A stretch of DNA of 32,144 nt from Elusimicrobia bacterium GWB2_63_22 (GTDB lineage Bacteria; Elusimicrobiota; Elusimicrobia; Elusimicrobiales; UBA9959). Each line of letters begins with the position of its first letter. The stretch's first letter is position 1. A program made the translations under genes and the position numbers. The notes under the pieces are model-generated. The model was not told the origin of the DNA, did no database searches, and worked only from the letters and a program-made list of their open reading frames with translations. This document shows, in pieces, positions 21,347-30,732 of the stretch. Location of the stretch: the NCBI GenBank assembly GCA_001799735.1, contig MGUA01000029.1:20748-52891 (forward strand), in the 5' to 3' direction.

Positions 21347-21382
21347 TAAGCGGTCCCCTGGAGAGGGGGCCGCTTATTTTTT
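21347..21382 (+). terminator. Rho-independent terminator after the TIGR03545-like gene
   Basis: A 12-base-pair stem (AAGCGGTCCCCT paired with AGGGGGCCGCTT, one G-U pair, extendable by a T-A pair) has a four-base GGAG loop and is followed by six T residues. It ends the 19047-21318 transcript and insulates the hydrogenase control region downstream. Confidence 0.9.
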
Positions 21383-21551
21383 CGGCCAGCAAGCGGGCCG
21401 GGCGGGGGGAGCTGCCTCCGCGTCAGGGAACCGAGGCGATAACGGGGCCGTAACGCTCCATAACGCTGCCCTTTCCGGGTTGTCCCGCCTGTGTGTAACG
21501 CGGCATTAACGATGCCGCTCCGTCGTAAATTCACAGCACAGAAAATAGGTA

Positions 21552-21580
21552 TTGACAAAACAGGAACGATGACGTATACT
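21552..21580 (+). promoter_or_regulatory. Strong promoter of the [FeFe]-hydrogenase operon
   Basis: TTGACA (21552-21557) and TATACT (21575-21580) are spaced by exactly 17 bases: a perfect -35 and a five-of-six -10. Transcription would begin near 21587, giving an 86-nt leader before the response-regulator ATG at 21673, which has a GGAGG ribosome site. This is the best promoter in the window. Confidence 0.85.
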
Positions 21581-21592
21581 ATTTTTGTAGTC

Positions 21593-21612
21593 AACGTTAC
21601 CGAATTAACGTT
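21593..21612. promoter_or_regulatory. Palindromic operator, Rex-like geometry
   Basis: AACGTTA and TAACGTT form a 7-6-7 inverted repeat starting about six bases after the predicted start point. A Rex operator of the form TTGTTAA-N4-TTAACAA contains TGTTA-N6-TAACA; this site contains CGTTA-N6-TAACG, the same spacing with one changed base per half. An overlapping perfect 12-base palindrome (ATTAACGTTAAT) lies at 21604-21615. Because rex is the second gene of the operon, autoregulation by Rex is the leading reading. A response regulator is the alternative. Confidence 0.5.
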
Positions 21613-21672
21613 AATAAATAACGATAAAGCAGGTAGCGTTACGTTTCAAACGATGAGCGACCGGAGGAAAGT

Positions 21673-22089
21673 ATGGCTAAAATAATCTGCATAGACGACG
21701 ACAAGGACATCCTTGACACCTGCGAAGTGGTGCTGCAGGGCAAGGGCCACACCGTTGTGACGGCGATCAACGGCCAGGAGGGCTTCGAGAAAGCCTCCAA
21801 AATGAACCCCGACCTGATAATCCTGGACGTCATGATGGACAACTCCACGGAAGGCTTCCAGACCGCCCAGAAGTTCCGCCGCACCGAGCTGCTTAAATTC
21901 GTCCCGATCATGATGCTCACCTCGGTCAACGAGACCTCGCCCCAGAAGTTCGGCGCCAAGGACGGGGAATTCCTGCCCGTGGACGCCTTCATGGAGAAGC
22001 CGATAAAACCCAAGGAGTTCCTGGCCAAGGTCGCCGAGCTGCTCGCCCTTAAGAAAGACCAGGTCAACGTAGAAGGCCGCACCAAATAA
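21673..22089 (+). CDS. Single-domain response regulator, first gene of the hydrogenase operon
   Basis: This 138-residue protein is a lone receiver domain. Acidic residues in ICIDDDKD, the phospho-acceptor Asp52 in LIILDVMMDN, and Thr/Ser and Lys in MLTSVNE and MEKPIK are all present. The stretch after Asp52 (VMMDNSTEGF) closely resembles that in the second lone receiver of this operon (LMMENPDSGF at 29160-29570), so the two belong to one subfamily. It has no DNA-binding domain. The start is supported by GGAGG nine bases before the ATG. The H-cluster-domain kinase downstream is a likely phosphate donor. It lies eight bases before rex. Confidence 0.93.
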   Translation: MAKIICIDDDKDILDTCEVVLQGKGHTVVTAINGQEGFEKASKMNPDLIILDVMMDNSTEGFQTAQKFRRTELLKFVPIMMLTSVNETSPQKFGAKDGEFLPVDAFMEKPIKPKEFLAKVAELLALKKDQVNVEGRTK

Positions 22090-22097
22090 GGAGAGTT

Positions 22098-22739
22098 ATG
22101 ACCAGGATTCCACAGCGCACCGTAGAGAGATTCTTCCGCTACTGCCAGTTCCTGCACACCAGGCTTGAGGCCGGCTCGGAGTTCGTCTTCTCGCACGAGC
22201 TGGCCGGAGCGGTAGGCGTCTCTCCCGAGCAGGTCCGCCGCGACCTGATGAACTTCCGCCTCAAGGGCACCCCTCAGCGGGGCTACCCCATAAAGGAGTT
22301 CATGGGAGAGCTGTACTCGCACCTGGAATCCGGCTCGCTGACCAAGATGGTGCTGGTGGGGGTGGGCAACCTCGGAAAGGCCATACTTTCCTACTTCCTC
22401 AAGCGCAGACCCAACCTCTGCATCGTGGCCGCCTTCGACCTAGACCCGGAAAAAGTAGACCGGGTCTATTCGGGCTGCCGGGTACACCATATCGGCCAGC
22501 TGGAAAGGACCGTCTCGCGGGAAAAGGCCACGGTGGGCATCATCACGGTGCCCGCCTCCGCCGCGCAGGAGGCGGCCGACATGCTGGTGCGCGCGGGCGT
22601 GCGGGCGATAGTAAACCTGGCCCCGGCGCAGCTCAAGCTGCCGCCCGGGGTCTTCCTGGACCAGATAGACATCACTCTCTCCATAGAGAAAGCGGCATAT
22701 TTCGCCCGCAAGAATTCAATCAAGGAGCAACTTCGATGA
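22098..22739 (+). CDS. rex: Redox-sensing transcriptional repressor Rex
   Basis: This 213-residue protein has the Rex layout: an N-terminal winged-helix domain (about 1-75) with SHELAGAVGVSPEQVRRDLMNF, and a Rossmann NAD(H)-binding domain with VLVGVGNLGKAILSYF and AAFDLDPEKV, followed by TVPASAAQEAADMLVRAGVRAIVNLAP. Rex binds DNA when NADH/NAD+ is low and releases it when NADH is high, so it often controls fermentative and hydrogenase genes. Its location between a response regulator and hydC in the operon, behind a Rex-geometry palindrome, supports local control and autoregulation. Good ribosome site AAGGAG. The stop overlaps hydC as ATGA. Confidence 0.95.
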   Translation: MTRIPQRTVERFFRYCQFLHTRLEAGSEFVFSHELAGAVGVSPEQVRRDLMNFRLKGTPQRGYPIKEFMGELYSHLESGSLTKMVLVGVGNLGKAILSYFLKRRPNLCIVAAFDLDPEKVDRVYSGCRVHHIGQLERTVSREKATVGIITVPASAAQEAADMLVRAGVRAIVNLAPAQLKLPPGVFLDQIDITLSIEKAAYFARKNSIKEQLR

Positions 22740-23221
22740 GCGTACCCAGCAAAGTGGGGAAAGTCCTTGAAAGCCACAGCTTCGCCAAGCGCGACAAGCT
22801 GATCCCGATCCTGCAGGAAGTGCAGGCCGCCGACGGCTATATTTCCAAGCAGGCCGTCCTTAAGGTGGCGGCCCATCTCAACATCCCCGCCAGCAAGGTC
22901 TACGGCGTGGCGACTTTCTATAACCAGTTCCGGTTCAAGCCGGTGGGCCGGTACCACATCATGATCTGCCGCGGCACCGCCTGCCACGTAAAAGGCTCGG
23001 CCGGCGTGCTGAAGATGTGCGAGGAAGTGCTCGGCATAAAGGCCGGCGACACCACCCGCGACGGCCTGTTCAGCATAGAGACCGTCGCCTGCATAGGCGC
23101 CTGCGGCCTGGCCCCCGTCATCAGCATCAACGGCGAGTTCCACGCCAAGATCACCTCGGACAAGCTCCGCAAACTCGTGCAAGACATCAGGAAAACGGAG
23201 GCGCAAAATGCCGCAAAATAG
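22736..23221 (+). CDS. hydC: NADH-dependent [FeFe]-hydrogenase subunit HydC (NuoE-like)
   Basis: This 161-residue protein is the thioredoxin-fold [2Fe-2S] subunit of trimeric HydABC enzymes, like NuoE of complex I. The N-terminal helical part (LIPILQEVQAADGYISKQAV) and ATFYNQF motif are typical. Cluster ligands are in CRGTAC (Cys-x4-Cys) and CIGAC (Cys-x3-Cys). It passes electrons between NADH-linked HydB and other clusters in the cytoplasm. Its ATG overlaps the rex stop by four bases and its own end overlaps hydB by 14. Confidence 0.94.
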   Translation: MSVPSKVGKVLESHSFAKRDKLIPILQEVQAADGYISKQAVLKVAAHLNIPASKVYGVATFYNQFRFKPVGRYHIMICRGTACHVKGSAGVLKMCEEVLGIKAGDTTRDGLFSIETVACIGACGLAPVISINGEFHAKITSDKLRKLVQDIRKTEAQNAAK

Positions 23222-25169
23222 GGACCTCATCGCCAGTAACCTCGCCGGCCTGCCGGCCTCGGTACGCACGGCTTTCCTTACCCGCGTCTTCGGCACCGAA
23301 GACTACGCCGAAAAAGCCGCGGCCATGCGGCGCGAGAACATTTCCAGAGCGGTCGTCTACATAGGCGCCGGCACCTGCGGCCTGGCCGCCGGCGCGGCCC
23401 GGACCATTGAAGCCGCAAAACGTTACATTAAGGATAACAAGCTGGAAGCCGACATCCTGGAAGTGGGCTGCATCGGCTACTGCGCCGCCGAGCCCCTGCT
23501 CGACGTGCAGCTGCCCGGGCAGGCCCGGGTCTCTTTTCAGCGCGCCACCGGCGAGGTAGTCCCTGGGCTGCTGGACTCCGTTTTCAGGGATCAGGCCCCG
23601 AGCAAGGACTACGTGCTCGGCCAGTTCGAGGACGGGGGGAAGAAGTGGCCCCGGCTGCCGCTGATGAGCGAGCACCCTTTCTTCGCCAAGCAGCTGCGCT
23701 TCGTGCTCAAGCACGTGGGCATCGTTGACCCGCTCTCCATACAGGAACACATAGCCCGCGGCGGCTACGGCGCTTTTCTGAAAGTCATCCACACCATGAC
23801 CCCGGCCCAGGCCTGCGACGCGGTGGAGGCCAGCGGCCTGCGCGGCCGCGGCGGCGGCGGCTTCCCCACCGGCAAGAAATGGAAGATCGCCCTTTCCTCC
23901 GACGCCGATCAGAAATACATCATCTGCAACGCCGACGAGGGCGACCCCGGCGCCTTCATGGACCGCTCCGCCATAGAGGGCGACCCTCACCGCATCCTGG
24001 AAGGCATCGCCATCGGCGCCTACGCCATCCACGCCAGCAAGGCCTATGTCTACATCCGCGCGGAATATCCGCTGGCCATCAAGAACCTCAAGAAGGCCAT
24101 CTCCGACGCCAAGGCCTACGGCCTGCTGGGAGAGAACATCTACGGCAGCGGCTTCGACCTGGACGTCATCATAAAGATGGGCGCCGGCGCCTTCGTCTGC
24201 GGCGAGGAGACCGCCCTCATGAACAGCATCGAGGGCCGCCGCGGCATGCCCAAGCCCCGCCCGCCCTACCCCGCGGTGCGCGGTTTGTTCGGCAAGCCCA
24301 CCGTCATCAATAACGTCGAGACCTTCGGCAACGTCTCCGAGATCATCTCCCAGGGCCCCGCGGCCTTCGCGTCCGTGGGCACCAAGGGCTCCAAGGGCAC
24401 CAAGGTGTTCGCCCTCTCGGGCAAGGTCAACCGCACCGGCCTCGTGGAGATCCCCATGGGCACCACGCTCAAGGAGATCGTCTTCGACATCGGCGGCGGC
24501 ATAGAGAACGGCCTGGCCTTCAAAGCCGTACAGATCGGCGGCCCCTCCGGCGGCTGCATCCCAATGACCCACATGGACATAGAGGTGGACTACGAATCCC
24601 TCAAGACCGTGGGCGCCATCATGGGCTCGGGCGGCCTGGTGGTGATGGACGAGAAGACCTGCATGGTCGACGTCGCCAAGTTCTTCATGGAATTCATAAA
24701 GAAGGAGTCCTGCGGCAAGTGCATACCGTGCCGCGAGGGCACGCTGCGCATGCTGGAGATCCTCAAGGGGATCACCCGTCCCCGCCGCGGCGAGAAGGAG
24801 GCCGACACCCTGGCCCGCTTCTCCGGCATCATGAACCTCGAGAACCTCTCGCAGGTCATCCGGGAGACCAGCCTGTGCGGGCTCGGCCAGACCGCCCCCA
24901 ACCCGGTGCTCAGCACGCTGCGCTGGTTCCGCGACGAGTACGAGGCGCATATCTTCGAGCGCCGCTGCCCGGCCGGCGCCTGCACCGAGATGCTGGAGTT
25001 CACCATAGACCCCGTCAAGTGCAAGGGCTGCACGCTTTGCGCCAAGGGCTGCCCCACGCAGGCGATAGTGGGCAATCCCAAGACCCCGCACTACATCATA
25101 GCCGAGAAGTGCATTTCCTGCGGTTCCTGCAGGACCGTCTGCAAGTTCAAGGCCGTCAACGCCGCTTAG
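23208..25169 (+). CDS. hydB: NADH-dependent [FeFe]-hydrogenase subunit HydB (NuoF-like flavoprotein)
   Basis: This 653-residue flavoprotein has four parts: an N-terminal thioredoxin-like domain (about 40-120), the NuoF core with the NADH-site motif GRGGGGFPTGKKW and the FMN-site motif NADEGDPGAFMDRS, a [4Fe-4S] site in SCGKCIPCREG, and a C-terminal 2[4Fe-4S] ferredoxin domain (CKGCTLCAKGCP and CISCGSCRTVC). It exchanges electrons with NAD(H). In the N-terminal domain three Cys are seen (GTCG and CIGYC) rather than the usual four of a NuoE-type cluster, so its [2Fe-2S] site may be altered. It may also provide the ferredoxin contact if the enzyme is bifurcating. It begins within the end of hydC and is followed after 12 bases by hydA. 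Confidence 0.95.
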   Translation: MPQNRDLIASNLAGLPASVRTAFLTRVFGTEDYAEKAAAMRRENISRAVVYIGAGTCGLAAGAARTIEAAKRYIKDNKLEADILEVGCIGYCAAEPLLDVQLPGQARVSFQRATGEVVPGLLDSVFRDQAPSKDYVLGQFEDGGKKWPRLPLMSEHPFFAKQLRFVLKHVGIVDPLSIQEHIARGGYGAFLKVIHTMTPAQACDAVEASGLRGRGGGGFPTGKKWKIALSSDADQKYIICNADEGDPGAFMDRSAIEGDPHRILEGIAIGAYAIHASKAYVYIRAEYPLAIKNLKKAISDAKAYGLLGENIYGSGFDLDVIIKMGAGAFVCGEETALMNSIEGRRGMPKPRPPYPAVRGLFGKPTVINNVETFGNVSEIISQGPAAFASVGTKGSKGTKVFALSGKVNRTGLVEIPMGTTLKEIVFDIGGGIENGLAFKAVQIGGPSGGCIPMTHMDIEVDYESLKTVGAIMGSGGLVVMDEKTCMVDVAKFFMEFIKKESCGKCIPCREGTLRMLEILKGITRPRRGEKEADTLARFSGIMNLENLSQVIRETSLCGLGQTAPNPVLSTLRWFRDEYEAHIFERRCPAGACTEMLEFTIDPVKCKGCTLCAKGCPTQAIVGNPKTPHYIIAEKCISCGSCRTVCKFKAVNAA

Positions 25170-25181
25170 AGGAAAACCATC

Positions 25182-26906
25182 ATGAAACTCACCATCAACG
25201 GAAACCCGGTAGAGGCCCAGCCCGGCGACACCATCCTGGCGGCGCTGAAGCGCCAGGGCATACACGTGCCGACCCTCTGCCACATGGAAGGCATGCTGCC
25301 TTCGGGCGCCTGCCGCATCTGCGTCGTGGAAGTGGAGGGGCAGAACAACCTGATCCCCAGCTGCTCGTTCCCCGCCGCCGAGGGCATGAAGGTGCAAACC
25401 AACAGCCCGCGCGTGATAAACGCCCGCAAGACCGTGGTGGAGCTGCTGCTGGGATCGCATCCCGACGACTGCCTGTACTGCGCCAAGCAGCCCACCTGCG
25501 ACCTCAGCCGCCTGGCCCGCGAGTACGGCGTCAGGGACCGCCGCTTCCCTGTAGCCAAGAAAAAGAAGCCCCTGGACATCTCCAGCCCGTCGATCTCGCG
25601 CGATCCCGACAAGTGCATACTCTGCGGCAAGTGCGTGCGCGTCTGCGAAGAAGTGCAGAGCGTGGCCTGCATAGACTTCGTCAAGCGCGGCTCCGATTCC
25701 TTCATCGGCTGCGCTTTCGACTCCAGCCTTAACGTCTCCTCCTGCGTCAACTGCGGCCAGTGCATCAACGTCTGCCCCACGGGGGCCCTGATGGAGAAGA
25801 GCGACATCCAGCCCGTGCTCGACGCCCTGACCAACGGGGATAAATACGTGGTCGTCCAGCACGCCCCGTCCATCTCCGTCTCGCTCGCCGAGGAGTTCGG
25901 CCTGCCGGCCGGCAGCGACGTAAACGGCGTCATGACGGCCGCCTTGCGCAAGATGGGCTTCAAGGCCGTATTCGACACCTCCTTCGCGGCCGACCTCACC
26001 ATCATGGAGGAGGCTAGCGAGCTCGCGCACCGCGTAAAGAACGGCGGCGTCCTGCCCATGATGACCTCCTGCTCCCCGGGCTGGATAAAGTTCGTGGAGA
26101 CTTTCTACCCGGAACTGCTGCCCAACCTCTCCACCTGCAAGAGCCCCCAGCAGATGCTCGGCGCGATGATCAAGACCTATTACGCCAAAAAGCAGGGCAT
26201 CGACCCCGCGAGCATCTACAGCGTCTCGGTAATGCCCTGCACCGCCAAGAAATTCGAAGTCACCCGCCCGGAGATGGGCCGGGACGGGAACCCCGACATA
26301 GACGCCGTGGTGACCACCCGGGAACTCGCCCAGATGCTGCGCATCTACGGCATGGACCTCAAGACCCTGCAGCCCGAGGAGCCCGATCTGCCGTTCGGCG
26401 ACCGCAGCACCGCCGGCAAGCTGTTCGGCGCCTCCGGAGGCGTCATGGAAGCCGCCCTGCGCACCGCGCACTTCCTCCTCACCGGGCGTGAGCTCGGCAA
26501 CCTGAAAGTCGAGGCCGTGCGCGGCCAGAACGGCATCAAGGAAGCCAAACTTAAGATCGGCGCCCTGGAAGTGGGCGTAGCCGCCGTCAGCGGCCTCGGC
26601 AACGCCCGCAAGCTCGCCGAAGAGATAAAGAACGGGCGCAAGGACCTCCACTTCATAGAGGTCATGACCTGCCCCGGCGGCTGCATCAACGGCGGCGGCC
26701 AGCCCTTCGCCCGCAACAAGGCCGCCATCGCCGAGCGCATGCGCGCCCTCTACAACATAGACGCCACCGAGAAGGTCCGCACCTCGCACAGCAACAAAGC
26801 CGTCCAGTCCCTATACAAGGACTTCCTCGGCAAGCCCCTCGGCGAGAAGAGCCACCACCTCCTGCACACCAAGTACAAGGCGCGCAAAGCCGCCGACGTA
26901 GCGTAG
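25182..26906 (+). CDS. hydA: [FeFe]-hydrogenase catalytic subunit HydA (group A, trimeric type)
   Basis: This 574-residue enzyme makes or consumes H2. From the N-terminus: a [2Fe-2S] domain (Cys residues in LCHMEG, ACRIC and SCSFP), a His/Cys [4Fe-4S] site (HPDDCLYCAKQPTC), two [4Fe-4S] clusters (CILCGKCVRVC and CVNCGQCINVCP), and the H-cluster domain with L1 (TSCSPGW, Cys297), L2 (MPCTAKKFE) and L3 (MTCPGGCINGGGQP). This is the layout of NADH-linked HydA in HydABC. L1 has Ser298 where many homologues have a second Cys. HydG, encoded at the window end, would help build the H-cluster. The stop is followed by a hairpin-rich repeat element instead of a close next gene. Confidence 0.95.
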   Translation: MKLTINGNPVEAQPGDTILAALKRQGIHVPTLCHMEGMLPSGACRICVVEVEGQNNLIPSCSFPAAEGMKVQTNSPRVINARKTVVELLLGSHPDDCLYCAKQPTCDLSRLAREYGVRDRRFPVAKKKKPLDISSPSISRDPDKCILCGKCVRVCEEVQSVACIDFVKRGSDSFIGCAFDSSLNVSSCVNCGQCINVCPTGALMEKSDIQPVLDALTNGDKYVVVQHAPSISVSLAEEFGLPAGSDVNGVMTAALRKMGFKAVFDTSFAADLTIMEEASELAHRVKNGGVLPMMTSCSPGWIKFVETFYPELLPNLSTCKSPQQMLGAMIKTYYAKKQGIDPASIYSVSVMPCTAKKFEVTRPEMGRDGNPDIDAVVTTRELAQMLRIYGMDLKTLQPEEPDLPFGDRSTAGKLFGASGGVMEAALRTAHFLLTGRELGNLKVEAVRGQNGIKEAKLKIGALEVGVAAVSGLGNARKLAEEIKNGRKDLHFIEVMTCPGGCINGGGQPFARNKAAIAERMRALYNIDATEKVRTSHSNKAVQSLYKDFLGKPLGEKSHHLLHTKYKARKAADVA

Positions 26907-27100: not shown

Positions 27101-29134
27101 ATGACACCCGAGAAAGAACCGCTGGTAAGGACCATAAAGGAACGCTGCAAAGCGTGCTATACCTGCGTCCGCGGCTGCCCCGCCAAAGCCATCCGCATCT
27201 CCGCCGGCCAGGCCGAAGTCATAAAAGAGCGCTGCATAGGCTGCGCCAACTGCGTCCTCATGTGCAGCCGCGGCGCCAAAGAGACCCTCGACTCCACGAC
27301 CAACGTAAAGACCCTGCTCAAGGGCGGCCAGCCCGTGGCCGCCGCCCTCGCCCCCAGCTTCCCCGTCGAGTTCGGCGGCATAGACCCCCTGCGCTTCGCC
27401 GGCATGCTCAGGGCCCTGGGCTTCAAGTACGTCTGCGAGGTCGCCTTCGGGGCCGACATCGTCTCCCTGCAGTACCGCAAGCTCATCAACGAAAGCCCCG
27501 GCAAGAAATTCATCAGTACCGCCTGCCCCGCCGTGGTCTCCTTCGTGGAGAAATACCACCCCGCCCTCGTACCCAGCCTCGCCCCCATAGTTTCCCCGAT
27601 GGTAGCCGAGGCCAGGATCATAAAGGACAAGTACGGCCCCGAAGTCAAAGTGGTCTTCATCGGGCCCTGCGTCGCCAAGAAAGAGGAAACCTCCCTCAAC
27701 CCCGCCGACATAGAGCAATCCATCACCTTCACCGAACTCCGCGCCCTCTTCAAGGACGCGGGCGTGGACCGCAACACCGCCCTGGACTCCCAGTTCGACC
27801 CGCCGCACCCCGCCAAAGGCGTGCTCTATCCCATGGGCGGCGGGCTGCTCAACTCCGCCGAGCTCGAAGAGGACCTGATGAGCGGCCGCTTCCTTTCCGC
27901 CGAAGGCCTGGAAAGCTTTCCCGAAGTGCTCAAGAACCTGGAGCACGGCGACATCGACGCCGATTTCATCGACCTGCTCTGCTGCAGCGGCTGCATCATG
28001 GGCCCCGGCATCAGCGTGAAGTCCTCCAAGCACGCCCGCGAGGCGGCCCTGCGCCGCTACGCCCGCAAGAGCTACTTCAGCATCCGCCTCAACGAGTGGG
28101 AGGAATCCATCCGGCGCTACCGCGGCCTGGACTACTCCGCCGCCTTCCAGCCCCAGGACCGCCGGATGAAGCTCCCCAACAAGGAAGAGCTTAAAGAAGT
28201 GCTGGGCAAGATGGGCAAGGTCAAGCCCGAGGACGAGCTCAACTGCGGCGCCTGCGGCTACCCCACCTGCATAGAGCACGCCATCGCCATCATCCGCGGC
28301 ATCGCCGAGAGCGAGATGTGCCTGCCCTACACCATAGACCGGCTCAAGAGCACCGCCGACGAACTGACCGTTTCCTACAACCAGCTGGCCAAGACCAGGC
28401 AGGCCCTGATGCAGTCGGAGAAGCTGGCCAGCATGGGCCAGCTGGCCGCCGGCGTGGCCCACGAACTCAACAACCCGCTGGGCGTGGTGCTGCTGTACGC
28501 CCACCTGCTGGCCGAGCAGTGCCAGAACGACTCGCGCACCTTCGCCGACGCCAAGATGATCACAGAGCAGGCCGACCGCTGCAAGAAGATCGTCGGCGGG
28601 CTGCTGAACTTCGCCCGCAAGAACAAGCCTTTCTTCCGCCAGACCGACCTGGTCAGGCTTGTGGACAATTACTCCAAGACGGCCTCCCTGGCGCCCGGGA
28701 TAAAGCTCGTCATAGACCCGTCCCCTGAGGACCTGCAGGCCGAGATGGACCCGGACCAGATCATCCAGGTGCTCACCAACCTCATCACCAACGCGGTGGA
28801 GGCGATGGGCGGCCTCGGCACCCTTACGGTACGCACCTTCGCAGAACGGGAGCAGGTGGCGTTCAGCGTGGCCGATACCGGCTGCGGCATAAAGCCCGAG
28901 AATTTCAAGAAGGTTTTCGAGCCCTTCTTCACCACCAAGCAGATAGGCAAGGGGACCGGCCTCGGCCTGGCCGTCTCCTACGGCATCATCAAGGTGCACC
29001 GGGGCAACATCACCGTGGTAAGCAATTCCGACCCCGCGGCCGGGCCCACCGGCACCACCTTCACGGTCACGCTGCCGCGCGTGGCCCGGGAAGCCGGCGC
29101 CATCAAGATGAAGGCCGAACCGTCCAGGAAGTGA
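27101..29134 (+). CDS. Sensor histidine kinase with an [FeFe]-hydrogenase-like H-cluster domain (candidate H2 sensor)
   Basis: In 677 residues it joins redox and signalling modules: a 2[4Fe-4S] domain (Cys16/19/22/26 and Cys45/48/51/55), an [FeFe]-hydrogenase-like domain (about 75-370), a third Fe-S domain ([10 protein letters not shown], then Cys in EMCLP), a short helical linker, and a HisKA/HATPase kinase with His454 in [34 protein letters not shown] and [13 protein letters not shown]-cluster motifs are modified: L1 is STACPAVV (one Cys), L2 GPCVAKKEE, and L3 [11 protein letters not shown], still giving four potential cluster Cys. This fits sensory (group C-like) [FeFe] hydrogenases. It probably measures H2 or redox state and phosphorylates the receivers of this operon. 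The ribosome site is weak. Confidence 0.9.
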
Positions 29135-29159: not shown

Positions 29160-29570
29160 ATGACCGACAAAACCAGAATAAAGATCCTCGTCGTGGAAGA
29201 CGATCCCGACATGATGGAGCAGATGAAGGTCTACCTCGAATCCGAGAATTTCGAGGTGGTTTCCGCCTCCACGCAGAAGGAGGCCGAACCGCTGATAAAG
29301 CCCGGCGCCTTCTCCGCGGCCGTGCTGGACCTGATGATGGAGAACCCGGATTCCGGCTTCGTGCTGAGCCACAAGATCAAGAAGATGGACGCCAGGATCC
29401 CGGTCGTCATCGTCACCTCCGTCACTAAGGAGACCGGCTTCTACTTCGACAAGGCCCACGACCCCAAGGCCTGGATCAAGGCCGACGCCATCATCCACAA
29501 GGAGCTGCGCTTCGAGCAGCTCAAGGCCGAACTCAAGCGCCTGCTGGGCGCGGGGGAAGGTCATGAGTGA
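29160..29570 (+). CDS. Single-domain response regulator, second in the hydrogenase operon
   Basis: This lone receiver of 136 residues has acidic residues in LVVEDDPDM, phospho-acceptor Asp57 in AVLDLMMENPDSGF, and the conserved Thr/Ser in IVTSVTKE. The usual conserved Lys lies in a divergent stretch (AIIHKELRF). The MMENPDSGF loop after the Asp resembles that of the lone receiver at 21673-22089. It follows the H-cluster-domain kinase by 25 bases with a clear AGGAG ribosome site, making it the likely direct partner. It overlaps the next gene by eight bases. No output domain is present, so it may relay phosphate or act by protein contact. Confidence 0.92.
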   Translation: MTDKTRIKILVVEDDPDMMEQMKVYLESENFEVVSASTQKEAEPLIKPGAFSAAVLDLMMENPDSGFVLSHKIKKMDARIPVVIVTSVTKETGFYFDKAHDPKAWIKADAIIHKELRFEQLKAELKRLLGAGEGHE

Positions 29571-30732
29571 CCAGCTCCCGGTCCACCAGCTCGACGTCCT
29601 GATCGTCGACGACGAAGCCGGCATGCGCGAAGGCGCCGCGCGGTCGCTCGAGGGCTTTTCCGTGCCGCTGCCGGACTTCAACGAGAACGTGACCTTCGCG
29701 GTGCGCAGGGCCGCCACGGGCGAGGAGGCCCTGGCCCAGCTCAAGGCCAAAAGCCCCGACATAGTGCTGCTGGACTACAAGCTGCCGGACATGACCGGCA
29801 TCGACGTGCTGACCGCCGCGCCCGGCGCCGGCGACTTCCTGACCATCATGATCACCGCCTTCGCCTCGCTGGAAGTGGCCGTCAACGCCACCAAACGGGG
29901 GGCCTTCGACTTCCTCGCCAAGCCGTTCACGCCGGAAGAGCTGCGCGCCACCATCTCCAAGGCCGCCCGCAGCATCTACCTGCACCGCAAGGCCCGCCGG
30001 CTGGAGGAAGAGAAGCGGCAGGTGCGCTTTGAATTTATCTCCGTGCTGGCGCACGAGCTGAAAAGCCCGCTGGCCGCCGTGGAGGGCTACATGCACCTGA
30101 TGAAGGAGCGCATGAAGGGCCCCGAGCTGGCCGCCTACGACTCCATGGTGGAGCGCAGCGTGGTCCGCATCGGCGGCATGCGCAAGCTGGTGATGGACCT
30201 CCTGGACCTCACCCGCCTGGAATCCGGCAAGAAAAAGCGCGCCATAGAGCAGGTGGACCTGGTCAAGGCCGCCGGCCTGATCCTCGAGAACGTCGCCGCG
30301 CTGGCCGCCGCGAAGAAAGTGACGCTGGAACTTAAGGCCCCGCCGGCGCTGGTGCTGTCCGCCGATCCGGGCGAGATCGACATGATAATTACCAACCTGC
30401 TCACCAACTCCGTAAAATACAACAAGGAAGGCGGCCGGGCCGTGCTGGAGCTCGACAGGAAAGAGGGCGGCGCCGTAGCCATACGCTGCTCCGACACCGG
30501 CATAGGCATGACCGAAGAAGAACTGGCCAAGCTGTTCGGGGAATTCGTGCGCATGAAGAACGAGCACACCCGCAACATCGACGGCAGCGGCCTCGGCCTG
30601 TCCATTCTCAAGAAAGTCGTCAAGCTATACGGCGGCGACGTAAAAGTACAGTCCAAGTACGGCGAGGGCACCACCTTCGAGCTCACCCTCAAAGACGCCC
30701 CCGTGCCCGCGGCAGCAGAAGCAGCACACTAA
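29563..30732 (+). CDS. Hybrid protein: N-terminal receiver domain and C-terminal histidine kinase
   Basis: This 389-residue protein has a receiver domain first (about 8-135; Asp71 in IVLLDYKLPDMTG, Lys in FLAKPFT) and a kinase core after it: His164 in VLAHELKSPLAAVEG, NLLTNSVKYN, DTGIGM and GSGLGLSILKKVV. There are no membrane helices. Receiver-first kinases usually take input by phosphorylation of the receiver, so it may be driven by the H2-sensor kinase two genes earlier. The target of its own kinase could be a lone receiver in the same operon. The start overlaps the previous gene. A hairpin element follows the stop. Confidence 0.92.
   Translation: MSDQLPVHQLDVLIVDDEAGMREGAARSLEGFSVPLPDFNENVTFAVRRAATGEEALAQLKAKSPDIVLLDYKLPDMTGIDVLTAAPGAGDFLTIMITAFASLEVAVNATKRGAFDFLAKPFTPEELRATISKAARSIYLHRKARRLEEEKRQVRFEFISVLAHELKSPLAAVEGYMHLMKERMKGPELAAYDSMVERSVVRIGGMRKLVMDLLDLTRLESGKKKRAIEQVDLVKAAGLILENVAALAAAKKVTLELKAPPALVLSADPGEIDMIITNLLTNSVKYNKEGGRAVLELDRKEGGAVAIRCSDTGIGMTEEELAKLFGEFVRMKNEHTRNIDGSGLGLSILKKVVKLYGGDVKVQSKYGEGTTFELTLKDAPVPAAAEAAH

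Follow-up and report, generated by a model that had tools for sequence, protein, structure and literature searches.

The promoter of the NADH-linked [FeFe] hydrogenase operon of Elusimicrobia bacterium GWB2_63_22 stands within a real and conserved multi-site candidate operator region, in which an inverted repeat of the words CGTTA and TAACG (O1), a weaker inverted repeat (O2) and a half-site in the promoter spacer together form a putative operator of the redox-sensing repressor Rex, a reading that we consider about 80% probable. The operon, on the forward strand of the window (the whole stretch of 32,144 nucleotides that was analysed), begins with RR1 (21673-22089), a protein with a receiver domain only (PF00072), and continues with rex as its second gene (22098-22739; PF06971 and PF02629), hydC, hydB and hydA (22736-26906), and genes encoding a histidine kinase with a hydrogenase-like domain (27101-29134), a second receiver (RR2, 29160-29570) and a receiver-histidine kinase (29563-30732), as assigned by Pfam. 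A preliminary description of this DNA, made from the letters and open reading frames, had stated that the response regulators of the operon lack DNA-binding domains, and Pfam finds none in the receiver proteins. Full-length matches to the kinase were found in genomes with a linked Rex.

Upstream of RR1, past a terminator-like hairpin of the preceding gene (21347-21376, forward strand; a 13-bp stem followed by a T run), there are two groups of direct TAACG copies on the forward strand: cluster A (21440-21465), with three copies starting at 21440, 21451 and 21461 in steps of 11 and 10 bp, and cluster B (21496-21511), consisting of U1 (GTAACG, 21496) and U2 (TAACGNTGC, 21507), 11 bp apart. The promoter that follows (TTGACA-17-TATACT, 21552-21580, forward strand) matches the consensus at 11 of 12 bases and had rightly been called near-perfect; the half-site AACGATG (21565-21571, forward strand) lies between its -35 and -10 boxes. 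O1 (AACGTTACCGAATTAACGTT, 21593-21612), the proposed main Rex operator, is an inverted repeat CGTTA-N6-TAACG, the first CGTTA of which starts 14 nt past the -10 box. Its right half is overlapped by CGTTA-N5-TAACG (21609-21623), and O2 (CGTTA-CGTTTC-AAACG, 21637-21652) precedes the ribosome-binding site, its centre 42 bp, or four helix turns, from that of O1.

The ten copies of TAACG or CGTTA that had been counted in 202 bp (21440-21641) are all in place, as TAACG on the forward strand (the five starts given above, 21606 and 21619) and on the opposite strand (CGTTA at 21595, 21609 and 21637), where 0.14 would be expected from the remainder of the window (Poisson P ~7e-16). The densest 202-bp stretch elsewhere in the window contains three copies, and in 2000 dinucleotide shuffles of the 354-bp intergenic region the count never exceeded six. 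A genome-wide search, which the preliminary description had proposed, returned only three matches to TAACG-N5/6-TAACG in the 3.06-Mb genome, all within this region, and the single match to CGTTA-N6-TAACG is O1 itself; a genome-wide regulon built on the direct repeats was rejected, and so was one built on the palindrome in this genome.

Homologous promoters were reached through Rex homologues in 101 genomes, and 21 of them were superimposed on the -35 box as an ungapped alignment, with positions counted from that box. The left half of O1 (CGTTA, +43) is present in all 21 and the right half (TAACG, +54) in 19; the overlapping repeat has CGTTA at +57 in 17 and TAACG at +67 in 19; O2 has CGTTA at +85 in 20, and its right half (+96) is represented by AACG at +97 in 19. 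The promoter-spacer half-site is AACG at +13 in 19 promoters, five of which have the full TAACG. Spacing is kept in these relatives: measured from the -35 box, no indel displaces the downstream sites in 20 of the 21 promoters. Half-sites on the same strand follow one another in 42-bp steps (+12, +54 and +96), the first being a half-site only, with the -35 box occupying its would-be left half. The promoters come from related species, so that the counts are not independent events and what matters is how the columns differ: the major base has a frequency of 0.96 in the site columns (0.97 in the -35 and -10 hexamers), 0.71 in the other columns and 0.51 directly upstream of the promoter. Across 29 sequences O1 has the consensus AACGTTAATTAATTAACGTT, CGTTA being present in all 29 and the right half reading TAAC or TCAC. 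More distant genera (L026, L027 and L029) have the spacer TAACG and O1 and lack the upstream array, and two further loci (L028 and L153) have mainly O1, again with no upstream array. In these alignments the conserved core occupies the promoter and the DNA downstream of it, positions suited to a repressor.

The upstream copies had been interpreted as tandem activator sites on one helix face. Sites of PhoB/OmpR-type response regulators are direct repeats in 10-11 bp steps upstream, and the steps of 11, 10 and 11 bp here are as described and resemble them; unlike such sites, the conserved core of this region is inverted and downstream, and no DNA-binding response regulator is linked to it. The two clusters are 35 bp (3.3 turns) apart, so the five copies do not share one face. 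U1 occurs at -53 to -56 from the -35 box in 17 of the 21 promoters and U2 in seven, each time 11 bp past U1; cluster A has counterparts at about -110 in eight promoters (that of GWB2_63_22 included) and at about -89 in nine, and no same-orientation counterpart of the 21451 copy was found among the 21. With a jitter of 1-3 bp in a subset of promoters, against fixed positions downstream, the upstream sites show neither a single helical phase nor a fixed promoter distance, and, being limited to closer relatives, variable in number and spacing and partly out of phase, they do not establish the activator interpretation. By this comparison they are a younger, looser layer that the closer relatives have added; they may be further Rex half-sites or belong to another factor; direct repeats are ill-suited to a two-fold symmetric Rex dimer.

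O1 has the geometry of a Rex operator, with half-sites 11 bp apart in the form GTKA-N6-TMAC (GTTA-N6-TAAC). The general Rex motif is TTGTGAA-N4-TTCACAA (PMC6391272), and the Rex box of Thermoanaerobacter ethanolicus is ATTGTTA-N6-TAACAAT (PMC5886521); with these O1 shares the half-site spacing, the inverted repeat and the inner bases GTTA...TAAC, as well as the location at promoters that serve hydrogenase genes and rex. It differs in having C for T beside the conserved G, and in the several phased copies and extra direct half-sites around it. The canonical outer bases TTG...CAA are absent from O1, in which CG replaces TG, and 10 of 14 positions match the T. ethanolicus motif; O1 is therefore offered as a variant operator and not as a standard Rex box. 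The sites of L026-L028 and L153 (ATCGTTA-N6-TAACGAT) match that box at 12 of 14 positions, with one base per half-site changed, and divergent members of the genus (L022 and L023) and a member of another family (L025) have right halves of TTAACA and TTCAC, respectively, which are known Rex half-site forms. O1-type palindromes also precede rex operons in other families, and lie ahead of rex-hydC-hydB in genome G095 and of the rex operon in genome G167, the Rex of which is 41% identical. In G095, CGTTA-N6-TAACG is found in addition upstream of a pyruvate:ferredoxin oxidoreductase gene, one of the two palindromes there being inside a longer terminator-like hairpin; pyruvate:ferredoxin oxidoreductase genes are members of the Rex regulon of Caldicellulosiruptor bescii (PMC6391272). 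Genome-wide counts of the palindrome show no excess over a reversed-pattern control in many genomes (four versus six in G095). The core Rex pattern GTKAA-N4-TTMAC has nine sites in the genome of GWB2_63_22, versus none in the control.

The product of rex has the N-terminal winged helix (PF06971) and the C-terminal NAD(H)-binding domain (PF02629) of the family, and it matches Rex chains in the PDB (best E 9e-34). The GxGxxG motif, Tyr100 and Asp191 of the Thermotoga maritima NAD(H) site (PMC8836258) align with matching residues here. In T. maritima Rex, Arg48 contacts G5 of the operator, Lys49 contacts bases 7 and 8, and Arg60 and Gly61 of the wing contact T4 and T3 (PMC8836258); Ser52 is a further DNA-contact residue. 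In an ungapped alignment Arg48 is kept, whereas Lys49 is replaced by Arg, Ser52 by Met, Arg60 by Pro and Gly61 by Gln. Base 4 of the operator is the one that has changed, from T to C. The wing changes would fit this base change within the phylum, but they do not amount to a sufficient rule for the operator word, because a Bacteriovoracaceae Rex (L155) shares this GTPQ wing and no TAACG palindrome lies next to its gene. A rule that the GTPQ wing predicts TAACG fails at that locus, and a Bdellovibrionales Rex (L157, wing GNPRKGY) pairs with TGTGA boxes.

The binder had been expected to be either Rex or an unlinked regulator, and the evidence favours Rex for the downstream inverted sites. All the TAACGNTG half-sites, direct and inverted, might be bound by an unlinked regulator, such as a response regulator of the OmpR or NarL type that receives its signal from the operon kinase, with Rex acting elsewhere; half-sites that are direct, inverted and everted, with 10-11 bp steps upstream, would suit such a protein, as would the lack of a DNA-binding domain in the receivers of the operon. 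In addition, CGTTACAAATGTAACG is found at FadL-type promoters, including those of genome G002, in which no Rex is detectable, so another protein may read a similar word. In family f1 Rex and the hydrogenase module nearly always co-occur, and their distribution therefore does not discriminate between Rex and another linked factor. Against an unlinked regulator, the O1 palindrome accompanies rex at two loci without RR1 (L153, where it precedes the rex operon, and L025), its form fits the Rex box, and the hydCBA promoter of a Bdellovibrionales genome in which the kinase-receiver-Rex module recurs carries ordinary Rex-like boxes (TGTGA-TATTAT-TCACA and TGTGA-TGTTAA-ACACA). That genome contains no CGTTA-N6-TAACG. 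We regard the unlinked regulator as improbable. Control in two layers, in which Rex would occupy O1 and O2 and a second protein the direct repeats upstream, is compatible with the Rex operator and is a serious contender, if at somewhat less than even odds: the downstream sites are fixed in 21 promoters and the upstream ones jitter by 1-3 bp in a subset, but TAACGNTG is common to both layers and one protein would be simpler.

Complementary words in the leader could also act as RNA, in hairpins pairing CGUUA with UAACG, and the leader has a fold z-score of -1.8. However, the predicted folds are inconsistent among orthologues, the words are near-invariant and no covariation was seen, there is no Rfam match, and copies of the word in the promoter spacer and farther upstream fall outside the transcript, all of which makes an RNA element very improbable. 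Chance clustering, to which a word of just five bases might seem open, is refuted by conservation at fixed positions in 21 promoters and opposed by the Poisson and shuffle results, and its likelihood is negligible. A bolder form of the Rex operator hypothesis is speculative and rather unlikely: in this branch of Rex the DNA word would have shifted from TTGTTA to CGTTA along with changes to the wing and the recognition helix, and in one genus the protein would read an extended array that mixes inverted with direct half-sites, possibly as an oligomer or with the linked kinase-receiver chain tuning it via RR1.

Elsewhere in the Elusimicrobiota, the palindromes upstream of other Rex types have the same 6-N6-6 geometry as O1. 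TTGTGA-N6-TCACAA precedes some canonical Rex genes of the phylum, and TNGATA-N6-TATCNA precedes nine Rex genes with a GxPKxGY wing (four of them mutual close relatives) and is absent before others of this type. The latter word was observed before the homologues L192, L199, L201, L203, L205, L206 and L207-L210, most with the GxPKxGY wing, and the phylum may thus have a second Rex-type operator word that departs from the standard. In G095, a CGTTA-N6-TAACG lies just past a -10 box (L174:1885-2230), followed by a stretch with no long open reading frame that ends in a terminator-like hairpin; this is possibly a small RNA under the same control, and no Rfam family matched it at the Rfam cut-off. 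CGTTA-N6-TAACG is also located near the -35 position of FadL-type outer-membrane protein genes (L102, L109 and L115) in both Rex-containing and Rex-less genomes; the FadL promoters were not counted in support as further Rex targets, given the palindrome in Rex-less G002. The Bdellovibrionales module (L157:1-3624), in the order kinase-RR2-receiver kinase-RR1-Rex, is 44-58% identical to the window proteins and is possibly common to the two phyla by transfer, and the Rex-HydCBA operon in a metagenome-assembled genome titled Thermoanaerobaculaceae (L153), 58-67% identical to that of the window, owes its placement to transfer or misbinning. For a second copy of the kinase in genome G042, no TAACG array was seen in the 16 kb covered.

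By analogy with known Rex proteins, we infer binding, repression and a response to NADH at O1 and O2. At low NADH a Rex dimer would bind O1 and O2; with NAD+ it would lie over the start site and the leader and reach the promoter spacer, blocking RNA polymerase at the promoter and start site. Given the four-turn spacing of 42 bp between O1 and O2, the dimers bound there would face the same side of the DNA. A rise in NADH would release Rex, so that the NADH-linked hydrogenase would be made while NADH needs disposal, and rex, being the second gene of its own operon, would regulate itself. The NADH-sensing Rex of C. bescii represses both [FeFe] and [NiFe] hydrogenase genes and has rex in its own regulon (PMC6391272). 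The control proposed here likewise extends over hydrogenase genes and rex, but rex is inside the hydrogenase operon, together with receivers and a kinase bearing a hydrogenase-like domain, and the genome contains one perfect site only. If the proposed operator is correct, it would allow Rex control to be recognized from sequence in a phylum that is largely uncultured, and would indicate that the DNA specificity of Rex shifts between lineages, with three operator words and three types of binding domain in one phylum. It would also tie NADH sensing to hydrogenase genes that share their operon with a kinase bearing a hydrogenase-like domain.
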